From Fibrobacter sp. (GTDB lineage Bacteria; Fibrobacterota; Fibrobacteria; Fibrobacterales; Fibrobacteraceae), in contig JAKSIE010000001.1 in assembly GCA_024398995.1 (NCBI GenBank), forward strand, positions 62,001-126,000: DNA of 64,000 bases, in the 5' to 3' direction. Below the pieces are notes generated by a model. That model was not told the origin of the DNA. It saw only the letters and a program-made list of their open reading frames with translations, and searched no databases. Of this stretch, positions 7,882-18,421 are shown piece after piece; position 1 is the stretch's first letter; every line of letters starts with the position of its first letter. Both the position numbers and the translations under genes were made by a program.

Positions 7882-8652
7882 ATGAACAAAGTAAAGGTTC
7901 TTTTTAACAAGTTCCGTAAGAGCGCCTTCTTGAAGGCGTTTCTTTTGTGGATTGTTGTGCTTGTGGTTTTGGCCCTGGCTGTAGATAAACTTTTGATGCC
8001 TATTTTCGCTGGCGCATTTACCAGTACCGGTGAAGTGCCCAACTTGGAAGGCATGTCTCAGGAAGTTGCAGAATCCACTTTGAAGGAAGCGGGCTTCAAG
8101 TATGAATGGCTTGAAGAAGGCCGTTATAACGCTACCATCGATTCCGGCAAGGTTCTTGTTCAGATGCCGGCTGCAGGTCGCGAGGCAAAGCTTGGCCGTA
8201 CGGTAAAACTGACCCGTAGCCTTGGCCTTCGTCAGGTTGAAATTCCGGAACTTCGCGGTAAGAGCCAGAAGCAGGCAAATATTTCTTTGACTCGCGCAGG
8301 TCTTGTTCAGGGTGAAATCGTGAAGGGCGCTCACAAGAGCATTCCTCGCGGCGTGGTGATTCGCACCATTCCTATGGCAGGCGAAAAGGTTCGTGTAGGC
8401 GATACTGTCAAGGTGGTTATCTCTGCTGGTGTGACTACCGGCAGAACCTTGCTCCCGGACTTTACTGGCGAGCAGATTGACAATGTTTATCCGAAGCTGG
8501 AAGTTCTTGGCTTTACCGTGGGTAAGATTAAGCGCAGAAAGGCTCCGGAAGAAATGGAAAATCCTGTTCCGGGCGCCGTGATTGAAACGAGTCCCAAGCA
8601 CGGTGACTATCTCCCGCCGGATACTAAGATCAACTTTGTTATCGTAGAGTAA
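7882..8652 (+). CDS. Stand-alone PASTA-domain membrane protein
   Basis: The 256-residue protein has a short basic N terminus, one membrane segment (about 15-38) and three tandem PASTA domains outside the membrane, beginning at VPNLEGMSQEVAESTL, IPELRGKSQKQANISL and LPDFTGEQIDNVYPKL. PASTA domains bind peptidoglycan fragments or septal glycan, usually as sensors of PknB-type kinases or on penicillin-binding proteins. Here there is no kinase or transpeptidase domain. It probably binds the cell wall in the periplasm. It is tightly linked to the Crp/Fnr gene upstream and the TPR lipoprotein gene downstream. Confidence 0.88.
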   Translation: MNKVKVLFNKFRKSAFLKAFLLWIVVLVVLALAVDKLLMPIFAGAFTSTGEVPNLEGMSQEVAESTLKEAGFKYEWLEEGRYNATIDSGKVLVQMPAAGREAKLGRTVKLTRSLGLRQVEIPELRGKSQKQANISLTRAGLVQGEIVKGAHKSIPRGVVIRTIPMAGEKVRVGDTVKVVISAGVTTGRTLLPDFTGEQIDNVYPKLEVLGFTVGKIKRRKAPEEMENPVPGAVIETSPKHGDYLPPDTKINFVIVE

Positions 8653-8657
8653 TTCTA

Positions 8658-10598
8658 TTGAAAATATTTCGTCTTTTTTCGCTGGTTGTTGTAGTTGCAG
8701 CGTTGTTCCTCAGCGCCTGTAGTTCCAATCCTGCAAAGAAAAAGGATGCTATGCTGACTTCTGCGGATTCTGCAGTGATTGCGGATGCCGTCATGAAGAA
8801 AATGGAGCAGATGACTGCAAAGCAGGCCGAGGCGCCGCTGCCTCAGAATCTTGATGCTGCCCACGAATCCTTTATGCACGCCATGGCCTTGGAACTCCGT
8901 GGAGAATCCTCGTTGGCCAAGATGTTCTGGCAGCGTGCTGCAGAGTCTGATCCCTATAGCCGATTTTTGACTTTTAAGATGGCTGAAATCTTGGCCGGCC
9001 AGGGCGCTGATTCTCTTGCTTTGGTGCAGGCTGTCCGCGGTCAGAAACTGAAGGGAAAAATTACTTCGTCTCAGTTAGGTTTGTTGGCACACCTGTATGT
9101 GAAGGCTGGCATCGCAGATTCTTCCCGTAAGTATTTTAATGCGGCTCTGGATTCTGCTCGCTATCAGGACATGCCGTTGCTTTACGACTACAGTCTTTTT
9201 CTTGAAGCGGTGAAGGATACCAAGGAACTTGTCCGCATTTATGACTTGTTGCTTCCTCAGGTGAACTATATTCCGTCTCTGTTCCAGAGGCAGCTCGGCT
9301 TATTGCTGGAACAGGGCAAGGATTCTGCGGTCATTGAGCTTTTCGGCAGGGCCCACGAAGTTAATGGCGACAAGAAAATGTTGACCCAGATGGTGCAGGG
9401 TCTTCTTTTCCAGAGGCGCTTTGGAGAGGCGAAAGCTATCGTGGATACGTTGACTGAATCCACCAGCGAAGATGAATCCATGATTGTCATGCTCATGACA
9501 AAGCTCGCTGAAAAGGACCGCCCGGCGGCTTATGCCATGCTTCAGAAGAAGTACTACGAAGACGGTGTTCGCACTCCCATGTTGACCAACTTCCTGGGAC
9601 ATTACGAAAATATTAATGGAAACATCGACAGCGCTAAGGTTCACTTGCAGCAGGCTGCAGATCAAATCAAGGACCAGCCGATTTATGTGACCAACGCTTA
9701 TCATGCTTTGTCCAGTATCGCCTTGAAAGAAAACAAGATGAAGGATGCTGTCCGTTATGCGGAAAAGGCGGACTCCGCTGCAATGGGTGGTGACAAGGTT
9801 ATGCTCGCCATGATGTATGGCACTGCCAAGATGTACGACAAGGCATACAAGATGCTAGATTCCTTGATCGCAGTTTGGGATAAGTGGACTCCTATGGCGG
9901 GTATCGCGGATTCTGCGTCTCTTTATAAGATGACTATGGACGTAGAAGAAAACAGGCTTAAGTTCAGAACCGTCTATGCACGAATTCTTGCAGGCCAGGC
10001 TACGGAAATTTGCCAGAAGAATCCGGGTGATTCTGTGAAGCTGAATTCTGCCAGGGAATTGAGAACTAAGGCTCAGGCTCTCTACGACCATTTGCTGAAC
10101 GTAGACTCTACGGATGTGACCTTACGTATGCTGCGAGCCATTAACATGGAACGTCTTGGACGTCATGACGAATCCTTTGCGCAGTTCGAAATCTTGCTGG
10201 ATTCCAACCGTAGCAAGGGCGTGGACAGGCCCGAGGCGTTGAACTATTACGGCTATACCCTGATTGACTTGAATCGTTCTCCTGAGGAAGTGGAACGCGG
10301 ATACAATATGGTCCTGCAGGCAATCGCAGAAGAAACAGATCCGGAACCTTCTGACGCCTACTTGGATTCAAAGGCCTGGGGTCTTTATCGCAAGGGACAG
10401 TTTGCGGAAGCGCTTGCAACCATGCAACTGATCAAGGGTTCTCAGATTCAAGAAGATCATGTCTATTGGGAACATCTTGCCGCTATCCAGGAGGCCCTGG
10501 GTATGAAGGTGGAGGCAACAGCTTCTTACAAGAAATTGATCAAGATGTGGCCCAAGAATCCTGCAGCGCTCCGATTCTTGAAGGGTGCTAAGAAATAG
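8658..10598 (+). CDS. TPR-rich lipoprotein
   Basis: The 646-residue protein starts at TTG 8658; later ATGs would lose the signal. A signal peptide ends at LFLSACSS (lipobox). The rest is almost all helical repeats of tetratricopeptide type, for example YFNAALDSARY, AYHALSSIALKENKMKDAVRYAEKAD and LWGLYRKGQFAEAL-like units near the C terminus. TPR lipoproteins act as scaffolds for envelope complexes, including outer-membrane assembly or secretion. It overlaps no neighbour but is only 5 nt from the PASTA gene and 11 nt from the next lipoprotein gene, so these form an envelope operon. The precise partner is unknown. Confidence 0.8.
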   Translation: MKIFRLFSLVVVVAALFLSACSSNPAKKKDAMLTSADSAVIADAVMKKMEQMTAKQAEAPLPQNLDAAHESFMHAMALELRGESSLAKMFWQRAAESDPYSRFLTFKMAEILAGQGADSLALVQAVRGQKLKGKITSSQLGLLAHLYVKAGIADSSRKYFNAALDSARYQDMPLLYDYSLFLEAVKDTKELVRIYDLLLPQVNYIPSLFQRQLGLLLEQGKDSAVIELFGRAHEVNGDKKMLTQMVQGLLFQRRFGEAKAIVDTLTESTSEDESMIVMLMTKLAEKDRPAAYAMLQKKYYEDGVRTPMLTNFLGHYENINGNIDSAKVHLQQAADQIKDQPIYVTNAYHALSSIALKENKMKDAVRYAEKADSAAMGGDKVMLAMMYGTAKMYDKAYKMLDSLIAVWDKWTPMAGIADSASLYKMTMDVEENRLKFRTVYARILAGQATEICQKNPGDSVKLNSARELRTKAQALYDHLLNVDSTDVTLRMLRAINMERLGRHDESFAQFEILLDSNRSKGVDRPEALNYYGYTLIDLNRSPEEVERGYNMVLQAIAEETDPEPSDAYLDSKAWGLYRKGQFAEALATMQLIKGSQIQEDHVYWEHLAAIQEALGMKVEATASYKKLIKMWPKNPAALRFLKGAKK

Positions 10599-10609: not shown

Positions 10610-11347
10610 ATGCGCAGAAGTGTTCTATTCTTGATGCTTGTTGCGCTGGCAATGCTTGCAGGTTGCGCTGGCGGTAAGAAAGCGGAGTTGGTGAATACCC
10701 CGTCCGCTTCGGCAGAGGTTGAAATTCCTCGCGATAGCCTTAGAGCGAAATTCGTTTTGGCTCTGACCGAAAAGGATGGCAAAACTCAATCTCTGGATGC
10801 AGTACTTTTCTCTGTTCCAGGTAAACGTTACCGTATGGAATTGACGGGCCCTATGGGCATTGGGGTAGCCTCAATGCTCTGGACTGAAGAAGGCTGGACC
10901 ATGGTTTTCCCTACGGAAAAGCTCTACATGAAGGGAAATGGCTACATGGTGGGCCTTTTGTCCAATATGTCTCTTCCCTTGGTCCATATCCATCAGGTGG
11001 CGAACCTCTTTGACGGCAAATTGCTGCCTGAAAAATTCGAAATTGAAGAGGAACGTGACCAGGTGTTCTACGCCAGGGAAAAAACGGGCAGGGCTTTCTC
11101 TTTTGCCAAGAAGGATTCCACCGTGGAATGGCTCTCTAGAATGGGCCGCGACGGAAAACCCGAGACTTTGCAATTTTTGGAGTACAGAACCTTTGAAGGG
11201 GTGATGACTCCGGCCAAGATTATTTTCCAGCGGGATGGTCAGAACTATCTGGAAATCAAAATTAAGAAGGTAACCCGCAATAAATCCTTCAGTTTGGGCA
11301 CTTGGCGCCTAAAAGTTCCCAGCAGCTATTCCCTGCTGGAAGATTGA
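10610..11347 (+). CDS. LolB/DUF4292-like lipoprotein
   Basis: This 245-residue protein has a signal peptide with lipobox (MLAGCAGG) and a beta-rich body. Segments such as SLRAKFVLALTEKDGKTQS, YRMELTGPMGIGVASMLW and GEEG-type turns before WTMVFPTEKLYMKGN resemble the half-barrel of LolA/LolB and DUF4292 proteins. Those carry or accept lipoproteins at the outer membrane. The assignment rests on pattern only. It directly follows the TPR lipoprotein gene, and a GGGG sequence precedes ATG. An outer-membrane lipoprotein acceptor role would fit the many lipoproteins in this genome. Confidence 0.6.
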   Translation: MRRSVLFLMLVALAMLAGCAGGKKAELVNTPSASAEVEIPRDSLRAKFVLALTEKDGKTQSLDAVLFSVPGKRYRMELTGPMGIGVASMLWTEEGWTMVFPTEKLYMKGNGYMVGLLSNMSLPLVHIHQVANLFDGKLLPEKFEIEEERDQVFYAREKTGRAFSFAKKDSTVEWLSRMGRDGKPETLQFLEYRTFEGVMTPAKIIFQRDGQNYLEIKIKKVTRNKSFSLGTWRLKVPSSYSLLED

Positions 11348-11366: not shown

Positions 11367-14300
11367 ATGAAGATATTTTCCAAGACCTTGTTTGCTTTTG
11401 TGATGCTGGCATTGGCCGGCGTATATTCCTATGGCGCAGATACCTTGGAAGTTTATGCTATTCGTGTTCAGTTTGCTAAGGAATCGACTAAGGACAATTC
11501 CTTGACGACGGGTGACGGCACCTTCGGCTCTGATAAGGAGCATTCCTATAGACTGGATCCCTCGGGTATGCGTGGCAGCACCCATTACTGGAAAAAGCAT
11601 TTTGAATTTGCTAACAACTATTTCAATGCGGCAAGTAACGGCCAGCTTGTAATCAAGTCCCGTATTTTTCCGCTGGAAGGCACGGCTTACACTCTAAAGA
11701 CGCCTATGATTGACTACAATCGTACCAGCAAGCAGAAGGGTGAAAAGACCGCAGAGTTTGATGAAGCTCGTAGCCGCGATTATCTGAAGTTTGTGTACGA
11801 TGCCGTGATGGCTGCGGACACCGCTCGAAACATGGGTGAGTCGCCCTTCCGCATTCCTCTGCCGGAAAGCTCCAATACCAAGCGCGCCTTCATGATTATC
11901 CATGCTGGTGCAAGCCGCCTTGTGGATGGCGGTAGCATGGGCACCAAGGGTGCAGATACCCCGGGTGACTTTATGGATGTCTACATCGATCAATCCGCCT
12001 GGGAGTATTTGCCGGACACCTTGGAAAATATTTCTACGGTTAATGATACCCTGAAGGATTCCAAGGGCAAGGATTCTATTTATACGAAGGGTAGCGGCAT
12101 TGTGCTGAAGGGTTCTGCAATTGACACCTTGCACTCTATTATGATTACCAGCGAAACCGCTTCTCAAGATGGTTTGAACTGGGGCATTAACGGTATTATC
12201 GTAAATCAGATTGCTCGCGAATTAGGATTGCCCAATACCTATGATGTGGTGAAGGGCATCTCTCGCCTGGGCTATTACGATATGATGGACTTTGCGGGCT
12301 ATAATGCCGGTAACGGTTTCTTGCCGTCGCTGCCTGCAGCCTGGGATAGAGCCTACATGGGTTGGAGCTCCGTTGTTGAGGCAAGACCTGTGGCTGGCAA
12401 GGAAATCACCATAGACATTGCTGCGGCTGGTTCTGGTAAGTGTGCTACCTATTCGGGCAAGAATATCTGTACCGAAATCCTGAAGGTTCCCCTGAATGCA
12501 ACGGAATACTTGCTGATTGAAAATAGGCAGCGTTCCTGGGATGATGACGGCATGGTTAGCGTAACCACAGACGAGGGTGTCGAAGAGATGGATACGACCA
12601 TCAGCACCTTTACCGTGGATAGCGTGGGTACGATTTTCGAAGATACACTCTGTGTTAAGAAGAAGTGCTCTGCAAATAAGATTGGTGGCGTGGTCCTTGA
12701 CGTAAGTTCCTATGACGCAGGCCTGCCTGCCAGCGGTATCGTTACTTGGAAGGTAAATGAATGGTTCCTTCGCGAAACCTTGGAATACGGCATTGCAAAC
12801 TTCTGGGGTGGCGACGACTTTAGGGACCATCAGTTCGGTATTGCCATGGTGGAATCTGATGGTGTGCTCAGTATTGGAAAGACCTTCAAGAATGCCTTGG
12901 GCGAAGACACCTACGATTACGGTTCCGGTACAGATCTGTTACCCCATTTGCGCGTGCCTGATTCTACATCAAAGCAGTCGTTTGATACGGTAAAGACCAT
13001 CGAGCCTACAGGTTATGCCAATACCATGACCACTCAGGGTGGTTATACGGGCATCAAGATTACGGTTTCTGTTCCTGAGGATGCCCGCATCGAAAAGACC
13101 TCCAACGCCTTTATGGGTGATAGCGTCATCAACTTTGCCGCACCCATTATTACGGTGAAGATCAGCATTGACGATGGCAGCCTCAAGAATTCCAAGTTCC
13201 CCCGCAACGTAGGCCTGGTTTCTGCTGTTCGCGGCGCCGTGTTTATCGCGGATCCTGAAAACGAAGGCGAAAAGGCTATTGTTATTGGCGCAGAAGATGG
13301 CTCCCTGCAGGCTTTCTCTGCTTTGGGTGAGCCCTTGCTTCCCGAAGATACGGTGGTGTCCCAGAAGGTTTTGACTCTTAAGGATTCCTCTGTGGATGTT
13401 CCTCTTTATCGCGTTGGCGAAAGTGATGGTCCGCTGGTTGGCATGGCTTCCGAAGGTAAGTCTGTCTATAGTTTGCACAAGAACGCCCTTGTTCGTACCT
13501 CGTTCCTTGGGGGTGTTGCTCAAAAGCAGGAATTGAAGTTGTCCAACGCCTTGGTGGGTCCAGTGTACTTTGATGAAAAGGTGTGGGTTGCAACCAAGAC
13601 CGCTTTGAAGTCCGCTCGGGTGAACAAGTCCGATGACTTTGTCTGGACCGCGGATTCTATCGTCTTTGCTAAAGAACTGGAAAAGGGTACCCTTGATAAG
13701 TTTAAGCCGACGGATATGGCAATTTGCGGTAAGGGCGATAATGCAAGAATTGTAACTGTGGGTGAATCTGGCCACTGGATGGTACGCCCTGTTGCCGATA
13801 TGGCCAAGAAGGTTCTGGTGCAGAGGTCTTCTGCCGCTGATCCGGTGTTCAAGATGGCTTGTGTCGATATGGATAGGGACGGCTCCGAAGAAGTTGTCTT
13901 TGTGGGTAGCCGCGGTTCTGTTTTCACCAAGACTCTTGCAGGTGAAGAAGATGACCTGAAGTCTCTTTGGAACTTGAAGAATTACAAGCGTGGTGCCACA
14001 GGTACCAGCGGCCTTAAGGATGAAACTTCTGGCGTTGCCGTTGGTGATATTAACGATGACGGATATCCTGAAGTGGTGTTCCTGGGTGACAACTTGATTT
14101 ACGCCTTGGATCGCTTCGGTCTGCCCCTGAAGAATTTCCCCATTGTGATTAGTCGCGGATCTCCGATCTACGCGTTCTACAGCGACCCCCTGGTTGTTGA
14201 CGTGACTGGCGACAATGTTCCTGAAATTCTTGTACCCAGCAATGATGGCCTTGTGTATGCTTTTGACAGCAAGGGTGCCCAGATTAAAAAGAACGGTTTC

Positions 14301-14861
14301 CCTATTGCAGCGGGCAGTCACGTGGATGTGGACTCTGTGCCGGAGCTTGTGCCTATGAGCATTTTCGTGACCAATGCGGTTGCTGATACCAAGTCCAATG
14401 GTCCAGAAATTTATGCAATTCACAGAAATTCCCTCTCTGCATTCCGTTTGCAGAAGGCGAAGTCTGACGCTTCTGAATCCGCTTTGGCTTGGACTCTTCC
14501 GGCTGGCGGCAATGAACGTACGGGCTGGTTTGATGCTAGCGAGCTGAAGGATGTTGAATCCGTTAAGTCTGAAAATACGATTACGGAATTCTTTATGTTC
14601 CCCAACCCGGTGCGTGGCGGCAAGGCCAAGGCTCAGTTTGAAATTGGGGCCGATGCTCAGTCCGCAACCTTCGAAGTTTATGACGTTACGGGACTTTGCG
14701 TTTACAAGACTACCATATCCGATGTGGTTCGTGGTCGCAATAGAATTGAACACCTGGATTTGTCCGCCTTGGGTTCTGACGTGTACACGGCTCGTTTGCA
14801 AGTGAAGTTTGCAGATGGCAAGAAAAAACAAAAACTTTATCGTTTCGGTTTGATTCGCTAA
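11367..14861 (+). CDS. M6-like pseudo-metalloprotease with T9SS sorting domain
   Basis: The 1164-residue protein has a signal peptide (ending SYGA). An M6 (immune-inhibitor-A-like) domain spans about 20-360. A beta-propeller-like region with FG-GAP/VCBS-type units follows (DINDDGYPEVVFLGD and DVTGDNVPEILVPSNDG). It ends with a T9SS type A C-terminal domain (FMFPNPVRGGKAKAQF to YRFGLIR). M6 landmarks are kept (SNGQLVIKS, GLPNTYD, AWDRAYMGW), but the zinc motif HExGH before LGLP is replaced by NQIAR. No other HExxH exists in the protein. It is therefore probably a surface binding protein rather than a protease. The DxNxDGxxE-like units suggest calcium binding. The next gene overlaps its stop codon. 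Confidence 0.8.
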   Translation: MKIFSKTLFAFVMLALAGVYSYGADTLEVYAIRVQFAKESTKDNSLTTGDGTFGSDKEHSYRLDPSGMRGSTHYWKKHFEFANNYFNAASNGQLVIKSRIFPLEGTAYTLKTPMIDYNRTSKQKGEKTAEFDEARSRDYLKFVYDAVMAADTARNMGESPFRIPLPESSNTKRAFMIIHAGASRLVDGGSMGTKGADTPGDFMDVYIDQSAWEYLPDTLENISTVNDTLKDSKGKDSIYTKGSGIVLKGSAIDTLHSIMITSETASQDGLNWGINGIIVNQIARELGLPNTYDVVKGISRLGYYDMMDFAGYNAGNGFLPSLPAAWDRAYMGWSSVVEARPVAGKEITIDIAAAGSGKCATYSGKNICTEILKVPLNATEYLLIENRQRSWDDDGMVSVTTDEGVEEMDTTISTFTVDSVGTIFEDTLCVKKKCSANKIGGVVLDVSSYDAGLPASGIVTWKVNEWFLRETLEYGIANFWGGDDFRDHQFGIAMVESDGVLSIGKTFKNALGEDTYDYGSGTDLLPHLRVPDSTSKQSFDTVKTIEPTGYANTMTTQGGYTGIKITVSVPEDARIEKTSNAFMGDSVINFAAPIITVKISIDDGSLKNSKFPRNVGLVSAVRGAVFIADPENEGEKAIVIGAEDGSLQAFSALGEPLLPEDTVVSQKVLTLKDSSVDVPLYRVGESDGPLVGMASEGKSVYSLHKNALVRTSFLGGVAQKQELKLSNALVGPVYFDEKVWVATKTALKSARVNKSDDFVWTADSIVFAKELEKGTLDKFKPTDMAICGKGDNARIVTVGESGHWMVRPVADMAKKVLVQRSSAADPVFKMACVDMDRDGSEEVVFVGSRGSVFTKTLAGEEDDLKSLWNLKNYKRGATGTSGLKDETSGVAVGDINDDGYPEVVFLGDNLIYALDRFGLPLKNFPIVISRGSPIYAFYSDPLVVDVTGDNVPEILVPSNDGLVYAFDSKGAQIKKNGFPIAAGSHVDVDSVPELVPMSIFVTNAVADTKSNGPEIYAIHRNSLSAFRLQKAKSDASESALAWTLPAGGNERTGWFDASELKDVESVKSENTITEFFMFPNPVRGGKAKAQFEIGADAQSATFEVYDVTGLCVYKTTISDVVRGRNRIEHLDLSALGSDVYTARLQVKFADGKKKQKLYRFGLIR

Positions 14862-15766
14862 TGAATATGTTGAAGCGTAATTTTATTGCGTTGATGATTG
14901 CCCTTGCCGGGGCTGGCCTTATGGCCGGTTGTACTTCTATTGCCGATGGCGATCCCGTTGAACTCCAACCGGGTACGGTTACTCCGAAGTCCTCCAGCAG
15001 CGTAAAAGATGTGTCTAGTTCCAGCGGGGCTAAAGAACCTTCAGAAATCGTTGACGATGAGGGCTTGGATTCCTTGATAGCCTTTGCGAAAATTCCAGCG
15101 GCAAAGTTGAACCGCGGTGTAACATTCTCCACCAATGCTTTTGAGATTTCAACGACCGAGGTAACTCAAGTTCTTTATAAGAAGGTGATGGGAGAGGTTC
15201 CCGCAATGGACAAGACCGGGGATAGCATCGCTGTTGCCAATGTGAGCTGGTATGACGCAGTGCTGTTCTGCAATGCCTTTGCCAAGATGGCTGGCCTGGA
15301 TACGGCTTACATTTATGACGGTGAGGGCGCTTCTCAGGTTCTGAAAAATCTTACCATTGATTACAGTGTCGAATCTGTTCGCTTGCCTACGGAAACGGAA
15401 TGGGAAGTCGCTGCTCGTGCGGGTACGTCAACCACTTACTACTGGGATGTCGCCGTGGCTTCTAAGTATGCTTATTATGGACAAACTAAGGGCCCTGTAA
15501 AGGTGGCCGGCTACCTTCCTAATGACTTTGGCCTCTATGATATGGGCGGAAATGTGGCAGAATGGACCAACGATTGGTACGGATCCTATCCGACGAAGAA
15601 TGTGGCCAATTATACCGGAATGATCGATGGTGATTATAAGATTGTTCGTGGCGGTGGTTGGTCCGATGTAGCGAAGGCCATGGCGTCTGCAGAACGTGAC
15701 AAGAAAGTACCTACCGCACGTACTCAGATGATCGGCTTTAGAATCGTTCATTCTGTCGGATTTTAA
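14861..15766 (+). CDS. SUMF1/FGE-fold lipoprotein (TIGR02171-like)
   Basis: The 301-residue lipoprotein has a lipobox (LMAGCTS), a Ser-rich linker (SSSSVKDVSSSSG) and a formylglycine-generating-enzyme-type fold. It shows FEISTTEVTQVLYKKVMG, VSWYDAVLFCNAFAKMAG, RLPTETEWEVAARAG, YDMGGNVAEWTNDWYG and a final RTQMIGFRIV. Fibrobacter has a family of such surface proteins; I believe this belongs there, but cannot check. True FGE needs a pair of active-site cysteines near the C terminus, and these are absent, so sulfatase activation is unlikely. A ligand-binding or structural role on the surface is more likely. Its start overlaps the stop of the M6-like gene (TAATG), so the two may be made together. 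Confidence 0.82.
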   Translation: MNMLKRNFIALMIALAGAGLMAGCTSIADGDPVELQPGTVTPKSSSSVKDVSSSSGAKEPSEIVDDEGLDSLIAFAKIPAAKLNRGVTFSTNAFEISTTEVTQVLYKKVMGEVPAMDKTGDSIAVANVSWYDAVLFCNAFAKMAGLDTAYIYDGEGASQVLKNLTIDYSVESVRLPTETEWEVAARAGTSTTYYWDVAVASKYAYYGQTKGPVKVAGYLPNDFGLYDMGGNVAEWTNDWYGSYPTKNVANYTGMIDGDYKIVRGGGWSDVAKAMASAERDKKVPTARTQMIGFRIVHSVGF

Positions 15767-17086: not shown

Positions 17087-17101
17087 TCGAGTGGTGAATT
17101 G

Positions 17102-18421
17102 ATGGATTCCGAAAAGAAGAAATTTTCCGGGAAGAAGTTTTTTAAGGGCTTGCTCCGTGAAATTGTCGTGCCGGTGTTCTTGGCACTTATTGTTATCCAG
17201 TATGTGATTCAGGCTTTCCAGATTCCTAGTGGTTCTATGGAAGATTCCCTGAAGACTGGTGACTTTTTGCTGGGTCTTAAGTTTACCTATGGATCTCCCA
17301 TTCCCTTTAGCAATAAGAAGTTCCCGGGCTTTACGGATCCTGCCGTTGGAGACGTGGTGATTTTCCGTTATCCTGGTGAACCGGAATATCCCGATGGTGA
17401 TCCGGAACGCTACACCCATCTTTTTAATGCCTTGATGTTTGGCAACTTCTACTGGGATCACAATCCCGAAGAGGGCCAGCCTCATTTGGTTCATTATGCC
17501 GATGGTCCTAAGGATTACATCAAGCGCTGCGTCGGCGTGAGCGGAGATACCCTTGCTGTTCATCAGGGCCGCCTTTATGTGAATGGCGTTCGTCAGGAGG
17601 TTTTGCCGGGACATGGCAAGTGGACTGCTGCTGGCAGGACCCTTTCTCCTCGCGATGAACGAAAGACTTTCGTGGTACCCTCTGTGGGCGATACCATTTA
17701 TGTGGACTCCGTTTCTCTGGAACAGCTCTGGTGGCTCCGCTCTATCGTTGCCCAGGAAAATCCGGATGAAGCTGTGGAACTGGATTTGACCCTGTGGAAG
17801 GATGGCGTTGAAACCAACAACTACGACTTCGAAGATTTCAAGATGCCGGTGGAGAACGACCGTGGCCTTGCTATGAATGAACTGTTCCGTCGCAATCGTC
17901 AAGTTGTTCAGCATCGTCTTGTGCAAGGTGATACGATTTCTGGTGTAATGTCTTTTGCGTTCTTCAAGGAATTGTCCCGCATGGCCTACTTGCCTATGCT
18001 GGATCCTCATGCAAAGGGCGGTATGACTCGCCAGGTGAGCTACATCGGTTTTGAGGGATCCTTGTTGCAAGATCTTGAAGGAAACGTAGCCATGCTGAAC
18101 CGAACTCAGGATGATTCTGAAGAAGCTACTGCTCCGAAGTTTGAAATTCGCCGTAAGTTGTCTCTGGGTGGAAAGCCCATGGATTACTACGTGGTAAAGA
18201 CTCCCCAGTACTTTATGATGGGTGACAATCGCGACAATTCTGCCGACAGCCGCTACTGGGGTTTTGTTTCCCAGCGTAACATCAAGGCTAAGGCTTTAGT
18301 GATTTACTTCTCCTTTGAAAACGAGGACGGTGCCTTTAAGCTGGGTAATCCCTTTACCTGGTGGCGCTTGCCCTTTAGAATTCGTTGGACTCGCTTGGGT
18401 AAGGTGATTCCCCTGATTTAG
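17102..18421 (+). CDS. lepB: Signal peptidase I with large internal insertion
   Basis: LepB cuts signal peptides from exported proteins at the periplasmic face of the inner membrane. One N-terminal membrane segment (about 21-39) precedes the catalytic Ser in QIPSGSMEDSL (S45). The general-base Lys is in DYIKRCVGVSGDT (K141), and the conserved GDNRDNSADSRYWG lies near the C terminus. The protein is 439 residues, much longer than the usual 200-330, because about 160-180 residues lie between the catalytic core and the GDNRDNS box. ATG 17102 is used; TTG 17099 directly before it would add one residue. It ends 1 nt before the next lipoprotein gene. High lipoprotein and T9SS cargo load fits its importance here. 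Confidence 0.94.
   Translation: MDSEKKKFSGKKFFKGLLREIVVPVFLALIVIQYVIQAFQIPSGSMEDSLKTGDFLLGLKFTYGSPIPFSNKKFPGFTDPAVGDVVIFRYPGEPEYPDGDPERYTHLFNALMFGNFYWDHNPEEGQPHLVHYADGPKDYIKRCVGVSGDTLAVHQGRLYVNGVRQEVLPGHGKWTAAGRTLSPRDERKTFVVPSVGDTIYVDSVSLEQLWWLRSIVAQENPDEAVELDLTLWKDGVETNNYDFEDFKMPVENDRGLAMNELFRRNRQVVQHRLVQGDTISGVMSFAFFKELSRMAYLPMLDPHAKGGMTRQVSYIGFEGSLLQDLEGNVAMLNRTQDDSEEATAPKFEIRRKLSLGGKPMDYYVVKTPQYFMMGDNRDNSADSRYWGFVSQRNIKAKALVIYFSFENEDGAFKLGNPFTWWRLPFRIRWTRLGKVIPLI

Follow-up and report, generated by a model that had tools for sequence, protein, structure and literature searches.

A predicted M6-fold protein retained across Fibrobacterota with its former zinc site as the most constrained part

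Why would a bacterium maintain a peptidase-like surface protein whose catalytic site has been lost? This question is raised by an intact open reading frame (ORF) of 1164 codons with an ATG start on the forward strand (11367..14861) of a 64,000-nucleotide stretch of a Fibrobacter sp. genome (assembly GCA_024398995.1, contig JAKSIE010000001.1, positions 62,001 to 126,000), hereafter called the window. We use the name M6i for its product and for the homologues of this protein in the phylum Fibrobacterota; the closest named relatives of the window are metagenome-assembled genomes (MAGs) of Fibrobacter sp., with 89% identity for a MAG from horse faeces and 85% for MAG70. In its predicted structure, M6i is a catalytically dead M6-fold protein that has lost its zinc ligands, and the lost zinc site has probably been turned into a binding site within the protein-export machinery.

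The kinship with M6 peptidases, proposed in the first-pass annotation of the window from the segments LGLPNTYD and AWDRAYMGW, turned out to be real: both segments are found in the protein, and the M6 domain profile TIGR03296 matches it with 39.8 bits, under the cut-off of 110.8, with the best stretch (residues 286–390, profile positions 178–271) starting C-terminal of the former zinc site. Sequence searches of the Protein Data Bank (PDB) with M6i alone gave matches at chance level only, and those with the M6i alignment mostly retrieved propellers plus one weak T9SS-type tail (type IX secretion system; E 0.15). Structure prediction recovered the M6/InhA fold. The full-length model has a predicted local distance difference test score (pLDDT) of 83.6 and a predicted template modelling score (pTM) of 0.81, and its top PDB match in Foldseek is the zymogen of the M6 peptidase InhA2 (4yu6, E 2.3e-12). 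Because the VIA-align results for the whole model were filled with propellers, the M6 part was folded separately with AlphaFold2 (residues 23–600, 11433..13166; pLDDT 85.1, pTM 0.90). For this part, which comprises the catalytic-like domain and the following beta domains, the InhA2 zymogen is the only Foldseek match at E ≤ 1e-3 (E 1.9e-14), and VIA-align superimposes 392 residues on 4yu5_B with a Z-score of 21.5 and a root mean square deviation of 3.5, while the next different protein reaches a Z-score of 8.8. The likeness to M6/InhA (4yu5, 4yu6) thus extends over the fold of the catalytic and the following beta domains, and GxPxxY-type and GW landmarks are found both in M6i and in the phylum's M6 proteins with HExxH. 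M6i has nothing that corresponds to the N-terminal part of the InhA zymogen, with the alignment starting at chain residue 160, suggesting that M6i, as modelled, would lack a pro-segment. It further differs from M6/InhA in the residues that replace the zinc site and in the addition of a propeller and a T9SS tail.

The annotation had also reported that the HExGH motif expected at this site reads NQIAR (residues 280–284, 12204..12218), and this replacement is not peculiar to the window. In a joint alignment, the HExxH columns of 17 M6 proteins from the same phylum align to N280-Q281-x-x-R284 of M6i; these 17 come from 30 loci, of which 18 were read and one (L104) was dropped, with presence of HExxH as the selection criterion. 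Across 42 M6i copies (including that of the window but not the truncated L011, which has no frame of 250 amino acids), the columns of the two histidines and the glutamate hold N in 41, Q in 42 and R in 40; a single copy has S in the first of these columns, and two have Q or H, respectively, in the third. A real zinc site elsewhere in the protein is ruled out since there is no HExxH in the 1164 residues of the window's M6i or in any of the 42 copies. In a tree of both sets, M6i and the 17 HExxH-bearing proteins form the two sides of one branch with a support of 100/100; this tree has no root, and the program cautions that long branches meet where the two sets part.

The former active site is also where M6i is most conserved. 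Among the 42 copies, sampled from Fibrobacter and from further families of the phylum, the 25 most conserved segments of 15 residues all fall within residues 259–334 (12141..12368), and mean conservation is 0.85 at residues 263–290 compared to 0.46 over the whole protein. No fewer than 12 polar residues (E263, Q267, D268, N271, N280, Q281, R284, D308, R328, E385, N386, and R387) are each present in at least 40 of the 42 rows. The ratio of nonsynonymous to synonymous substitution rates (dN/dS) between the window's gene and its two nearest homologues is 0.008 and 0.009 for residues 255–345 but 0.083 and 0.053 over its full length, with dS against L013 already at 1.7; against L003, dS is saturated for most parts of the gene, and no dN/dS is therefore given. 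Recent decay into a pseudogene is ruled out by the intact ORF, the dN/dS of 0.05–0.08, and the phylum-wide N-Q-x-x-R. The simplest reading would be a single rewiring of the pocket, prior to the divergence of the sampled families, that has been maintained ever since. That the dead site is under the strongest constraint of the whole protein is also the strongest argument that the M6i pocket binds something.

How widely is this protein retained? The idea of such a pseudo-enzyme is not new, since NCBIfam release 20.0 already holds a family NF052323 named "T9SS-dependent M6-like inactivated metalloprotease". This model resembles the window's M6i in its inactivated M6-like domain, in the T9SS dependence that is predicted for M6i, and in its similar length (model length 1043; E 1.1e-76), and differs in that the score of M6i is 258.6 bits where the cut-off is 600, which makes the window's protein a diverged relative of NF052323. 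Of 150 Fibrobacterota genomes, 149 match NF052323 in a profile search, with E ≤ 6e-32 in 142; these matches cover all 89 genomes of good quality and all 40 genera, while none of 14 control genomes matched. Seven genomes match weakly (G017, G041, G100, G120, G127, G131, and G149), each of them less than 90% complete, and G061 is the only one of the 150 with no match. The cut-off of 600 is reached in none of the 150 genomes (best score 331.7 bits), so the Fibrobacterota proteins form a diverged branch, and NF052323 may have been built on another group. Searches of plasmids and of viral contigs found no relative of M6i. Among titles and abstract beginnings of the open-licence literature, we recognised no description of an M6i protein and did not encounter its Fibrobacterota branch, near-universality, frozen pseudo-site, or link to a propeller-bearing barrel, and the main text of a review of metallo-pseudopeptidases does not contain the terms "M6 family", "family M6", or "immune inhibitor" (PMC11266112). 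What is new is thus the near-universal Fibrobacterota branch, its near-fixed N-Q-x-x-R, and, in the majority of lineages that do not belong to the window's class, a genetic tie to the gene of a propeller-bearing barrel. A protein found throughout a phylum with a dead site as its most constrained part directs attention to one gene and three residues, and M6i would be a clear bacterial example of an old and selected metallo-pseudoprotease.

The remainder of M6i is consistent with export to the cell surface. A signal peptide was assigned by eye to residues 1–23 (11367..11435), where the model has a helix at residues 6–19. The calcium-type beta-propeller that had been noticed in the sequence is borne out at approximately residues 602–1030 (13170..14456), which match eight-bladed propellers in structure comparisons of the predicted model and include a Pfam FG-GAP_3 match at residues 834–904 with DxDxDG-like loops of calcium type, as judged by eye. 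The proposed T9SS tail fared less uniformly: residues 1072–1164 (14580..14858) resemble a type-A tail in that the model ends in a domain of seven strands (1072–1163) that can be aligned across the phylum, but the profile scores stay below the cut-offs (14.5 versus 23 bits for TIGR04183 and 16.9 versus 27 for Por_Secre_tail, PF18962). The sorting machinery for such a tail seems to be present. A PorU-family match is found in 149 of the 150 genomes, 33 of them over the cut-off, and also below the cut-off in two of the 14 controls; the window's genome has a PorU-family match at E 9.9e-115 (382.9 bits, cut-off 420) and a PorV-family match at 90.7 bits (cut-off 90). As for a possible replacement of PorZ by M6i, the PorZ model matches in 24 of 24 genomes, always below its cut-off, and matches a Bacteroides control as well. 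A surface pseudo-enzyme of M6 type, as the annotation had put it, is therefore supported by the predicted fold, the lost ligands, the likely signal peptide, the C-terminal domain, and the PorU-family matches. PorU is a working sortase, a cysteine peptidase of C25 type, and M6i as its replacement is ruled out by the presence of PorU-family matches throughout the phylum.

A more specific hint to the function of M6i comes from its neighbours outside the class Fibrobacteria, where its gene usually sits between the gene of a PorV-family barrel (upstream) and that of an HExxH peptidase with a TolB-type propeller (downstream). Of 12 fetched regions, 11 have the barrel gene immediately upstream of M6i and ten have the peptidase gene immediately downstream; neither flanks M6i in L046, and L050 stops at a contig end. 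Based on counts made by hand for the 38 of 41 genomes outside the class with a listed place of M6i (G029 from its fetched region), M6i shares a contig with the barrel gene in 34 and with the peptidase gene in 30.

The barrel protein has approximately 750–950 amino acids (e.g., L049:2979-5384 and L061:12845-15280); its ends form a PorV-family barrel, and a faintly PorZ-like Reg_prop propeller of ca. 400 residues follows the first barrel segment. It is thus like the PorV/PorQ family (NF033709; NF052325, "PorV2") in its barrel part and differs by the inserted propeller. Four scanned proteins reach 160–195 bits with NF033709 (cut-off 90; 185.5 for that of L049, mainly over the barrel part). Barrels with inserted propeller have matches in 149 of the 150 genomes, 138 of them at E ≤ 1e-120; the 12 genomes falling short of this include G122 with no match and the window's genome (G000) and G143 with matches of about 1e-4. 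Among 24 genomes searched, this protein is also the best PorV-family match in 21, with G000, G029, and G041 as exceptions. A plasmid search with it found no record covering 80% of the protein, and the ten matches listed lie mostly over the propeller; the same search with the PorV-family locus of the window's genome gave only unrelated phosphomannomutase matches. The peptidase has approximately 1085–1215 amino acids (e.g., L049:9159-12638) and combines a peptidase-MA domain with HExxH, a propeller of TolB type, and a long C-terminal portion. It has matches in all 150 genomes, 145 of them at E ≤ 1e-80 and five weaker. As a separate observation, a small protein of ca. 210 amino acids with a hydrophobic N-terminus and an invariant motif IH-x-SGIYS-x-x-R-x-SPR is encoded directly upstream of the PorV-type gene in eight loci (e.g., L049:2348-2992); for that of L049, Pfam has no match and NCBIfam matches at chance level only (E 0.068).

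Known T9SS components offer a precedent for a propeller-bearing surface protein held by a barrel. In the attachment complex of Porphyromonas gingivalis, PorV and PorQ are barrels that hold PorU and PorZ at the surface, and PorZ combines two propellers with an uncleaved C-terminal domain of T9SS type (PMC8545088). For Flavobacterium johnsoniae, PMC10994853 describes loops of PorV that bind the type-A C-terminal domain of substrates. M6i resembles these proteins as a putative surface protein with a propeller and, like PorZ, a T9SS-type C-terminal domain, but its fold is distinct and the phylum has a PorU-family gene of its own. Fibrobacter succinogenes is a strong degrader of cellulose in the rumen whose cellulases have been proposed to arrive at the surface via the T9SS (PMC6851124). 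Across Fibrobacterota, the retention of M6i in 149 of 150 genomes and its linkage to the gene of a PorV-family barrel suggest a housekeeping role at the surface or in secretion. To our knowledge, the differences between the T9SS of Fibrobacter and that of Bacteroidota have been little studied.

We favour the reading, to which we would give close to an even chance, that M6i is a constitutive surface subunit of the sorting and attachment machinery of the phylum's T9SS, attached via its C-terminal domain to a barrel of PorV type and with its former active site serving as a binding pocket. M6i would be exported via Sec and the T9SS. Its C-terminal domain would dock on a barrel of the PorV family, the most probable candidate being the variant of this phylum in which a beta-propeller is inserted close to the N-terminus; in Porphyromonas, PorV and PorQ hold PorU and PorZ in a comparable manner. 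The old cleft, which now has N-Q-x-x-R together with a conserved ETxxQDGxNWG loop, may then bind a ligand or partner, with a peptide, as in the peptidase ancestor, or a surface anchor as natural candidates, and the neighbouring HExxH peptidase/TolB-propeller protein might belong to the same surface complex. Such a resident role fits better than that of a niche cargo because of the propeller and T9SS-type tail, the PorV-family barrel as neighbour, and the phylum-wide retention. A bolder version, which seems rather doubtful, is that these proteins form an unrecognised core module of the T9SS, composed of the propeller-bearing PorV barrel, a docked dead M6 protein that uses its fossil site for a sorting substrate or surface anchor, and the peptidase/TolB-propeller protein as partner.

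Several observations weigh against this subunit role. Four of the 38 genomes outside the class Fibrobacteria (G003, G043, G069, and G071) have no barrel gene on the contig of M6i, and other genes lie on both of its flanks in G043. Within that class, including the window, M6i is not beside the gene of a PorV-type barrel, and the M6i, barrel, and peptidase genes are far from each other in the one-contig genome G032. Orthologues with retained architecture are encoded elsewhere in genomes of the class (barrel, L110–L112; peptidase, L109), and a barrel orthologue was not found in the window's own assembly (84.7% complete), since its best match to the barrel with inserted propeller is only E 3.2e-4. 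Weak barrel and peptidase matches may be other PorV-family or propeller proteins, the M6i tail stays below the curated T9SS cut-offs, and an ordinary T9SS cargo could also show linkage to a barrel gene.

This last point leads to the alternative that M6i is a common T9SS cargo protein, anchored covalently and serving in structure or adhesion at the surface, in line with its T9SS-type tail, its propeller domain, and the near-universal PorU-family match. We nevertheless consider this unlikely, given that retention in nearly the whole phylum, a near-frozen pocket, and linkage to a PorV-family barrel would be unusual for niche cargo. Such cargo would include the binder of protein or plant polymers that the first-pass annotation had suggested, an idea that is not supported: Pfam and NCBIfam detect no carbohydrate-binding module in M6i, only a lambda-carrageenase beta-propeller model at 25.3 bits, below its cut-off of 26.8, hints at polysaccharides, and the distribution and barrel linkage point to housekeeping instead. 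The pseudoprotease could alternatively regulate an active surface peptidase, most likely its neighbour with HExxH (HEYAH/HEFSH), for which it would present or block substrates. Pseudopeptidases often regulate active relatives (PMC11266112), the two genes frequently share a contig outside the class Fibrobacteria, and the neighbour retains H181, E182, H185, and the downstream E233 in all ten aligned proteins, with the motif also kept in the window's genome (L109). Yet M6i and this peptidase have folds of different families, linkage to M6i is at least as tight for the barrel gene as for the peptidase gene, the genes are apart in the class Fibrobacteria, and the activity of the neighbour is itself a sequence-based prediction, so that we give regulation of this kind a small chance. 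The high number of near-invariant polar residues, perhaps beyond the needs of binding alone, could even indicate that the cleft of M6i has acquired a new, metal-independent catalysis (e.g., by Asn, Gln, Arg, and conserved Glu/Asp), making it a re-purposed enzyme instead of a pseudoenzyme. We find this very improbable because our searches show no enzyme with such a residue set, and conservation by itself cannot tell binding from catalysis.

In the window, M6i lies in a different setting. The preceding genes on the same strand encode a TPR protein (8658..10598; a lipoprotein as judged by eye) and a LolB/DUF4292-like lipoprotein (10610..11347; weak profile matches below cut-offs), and further upstream, beside crp and purA, lies a gene (7882-8652) whose product has three PASTA domains and matches no kinase domain, in an order that is kept in some related genera. 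Downstream on the forward strand, a gene for an FGE-fold lipoprotein related to GldK/PorK (14861..15766; GldK 86.3 bits, cut-off 350; TIGR02171 119.6 bits, cut-off 544) overlaps the stop codon of M6i by one base. In all 12 Fibrobacter loci (L002–L013), M6i is followed by genes for this FGE-fold lipoprotein, an NlpE-like lipoprotein, and a LytTR regulator, and the LolB-like gene precedes it in nine of them. The order purA-crp-PASTA-TPR-LolB-M6i in the same direction is found in L056, L058, and L063, and L055 has these genes nearby but reversed, while L057, L059, L060, and L062, also of the class Fibrobacteria, have kept none of the window's neighbour genes. Elsewhere in the window (17099-18421) is the gene of a 440-residue signal peptidase I whose S26 parts (residues 22–167 and 357–416) are split by an insert of ca. 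190 residues.

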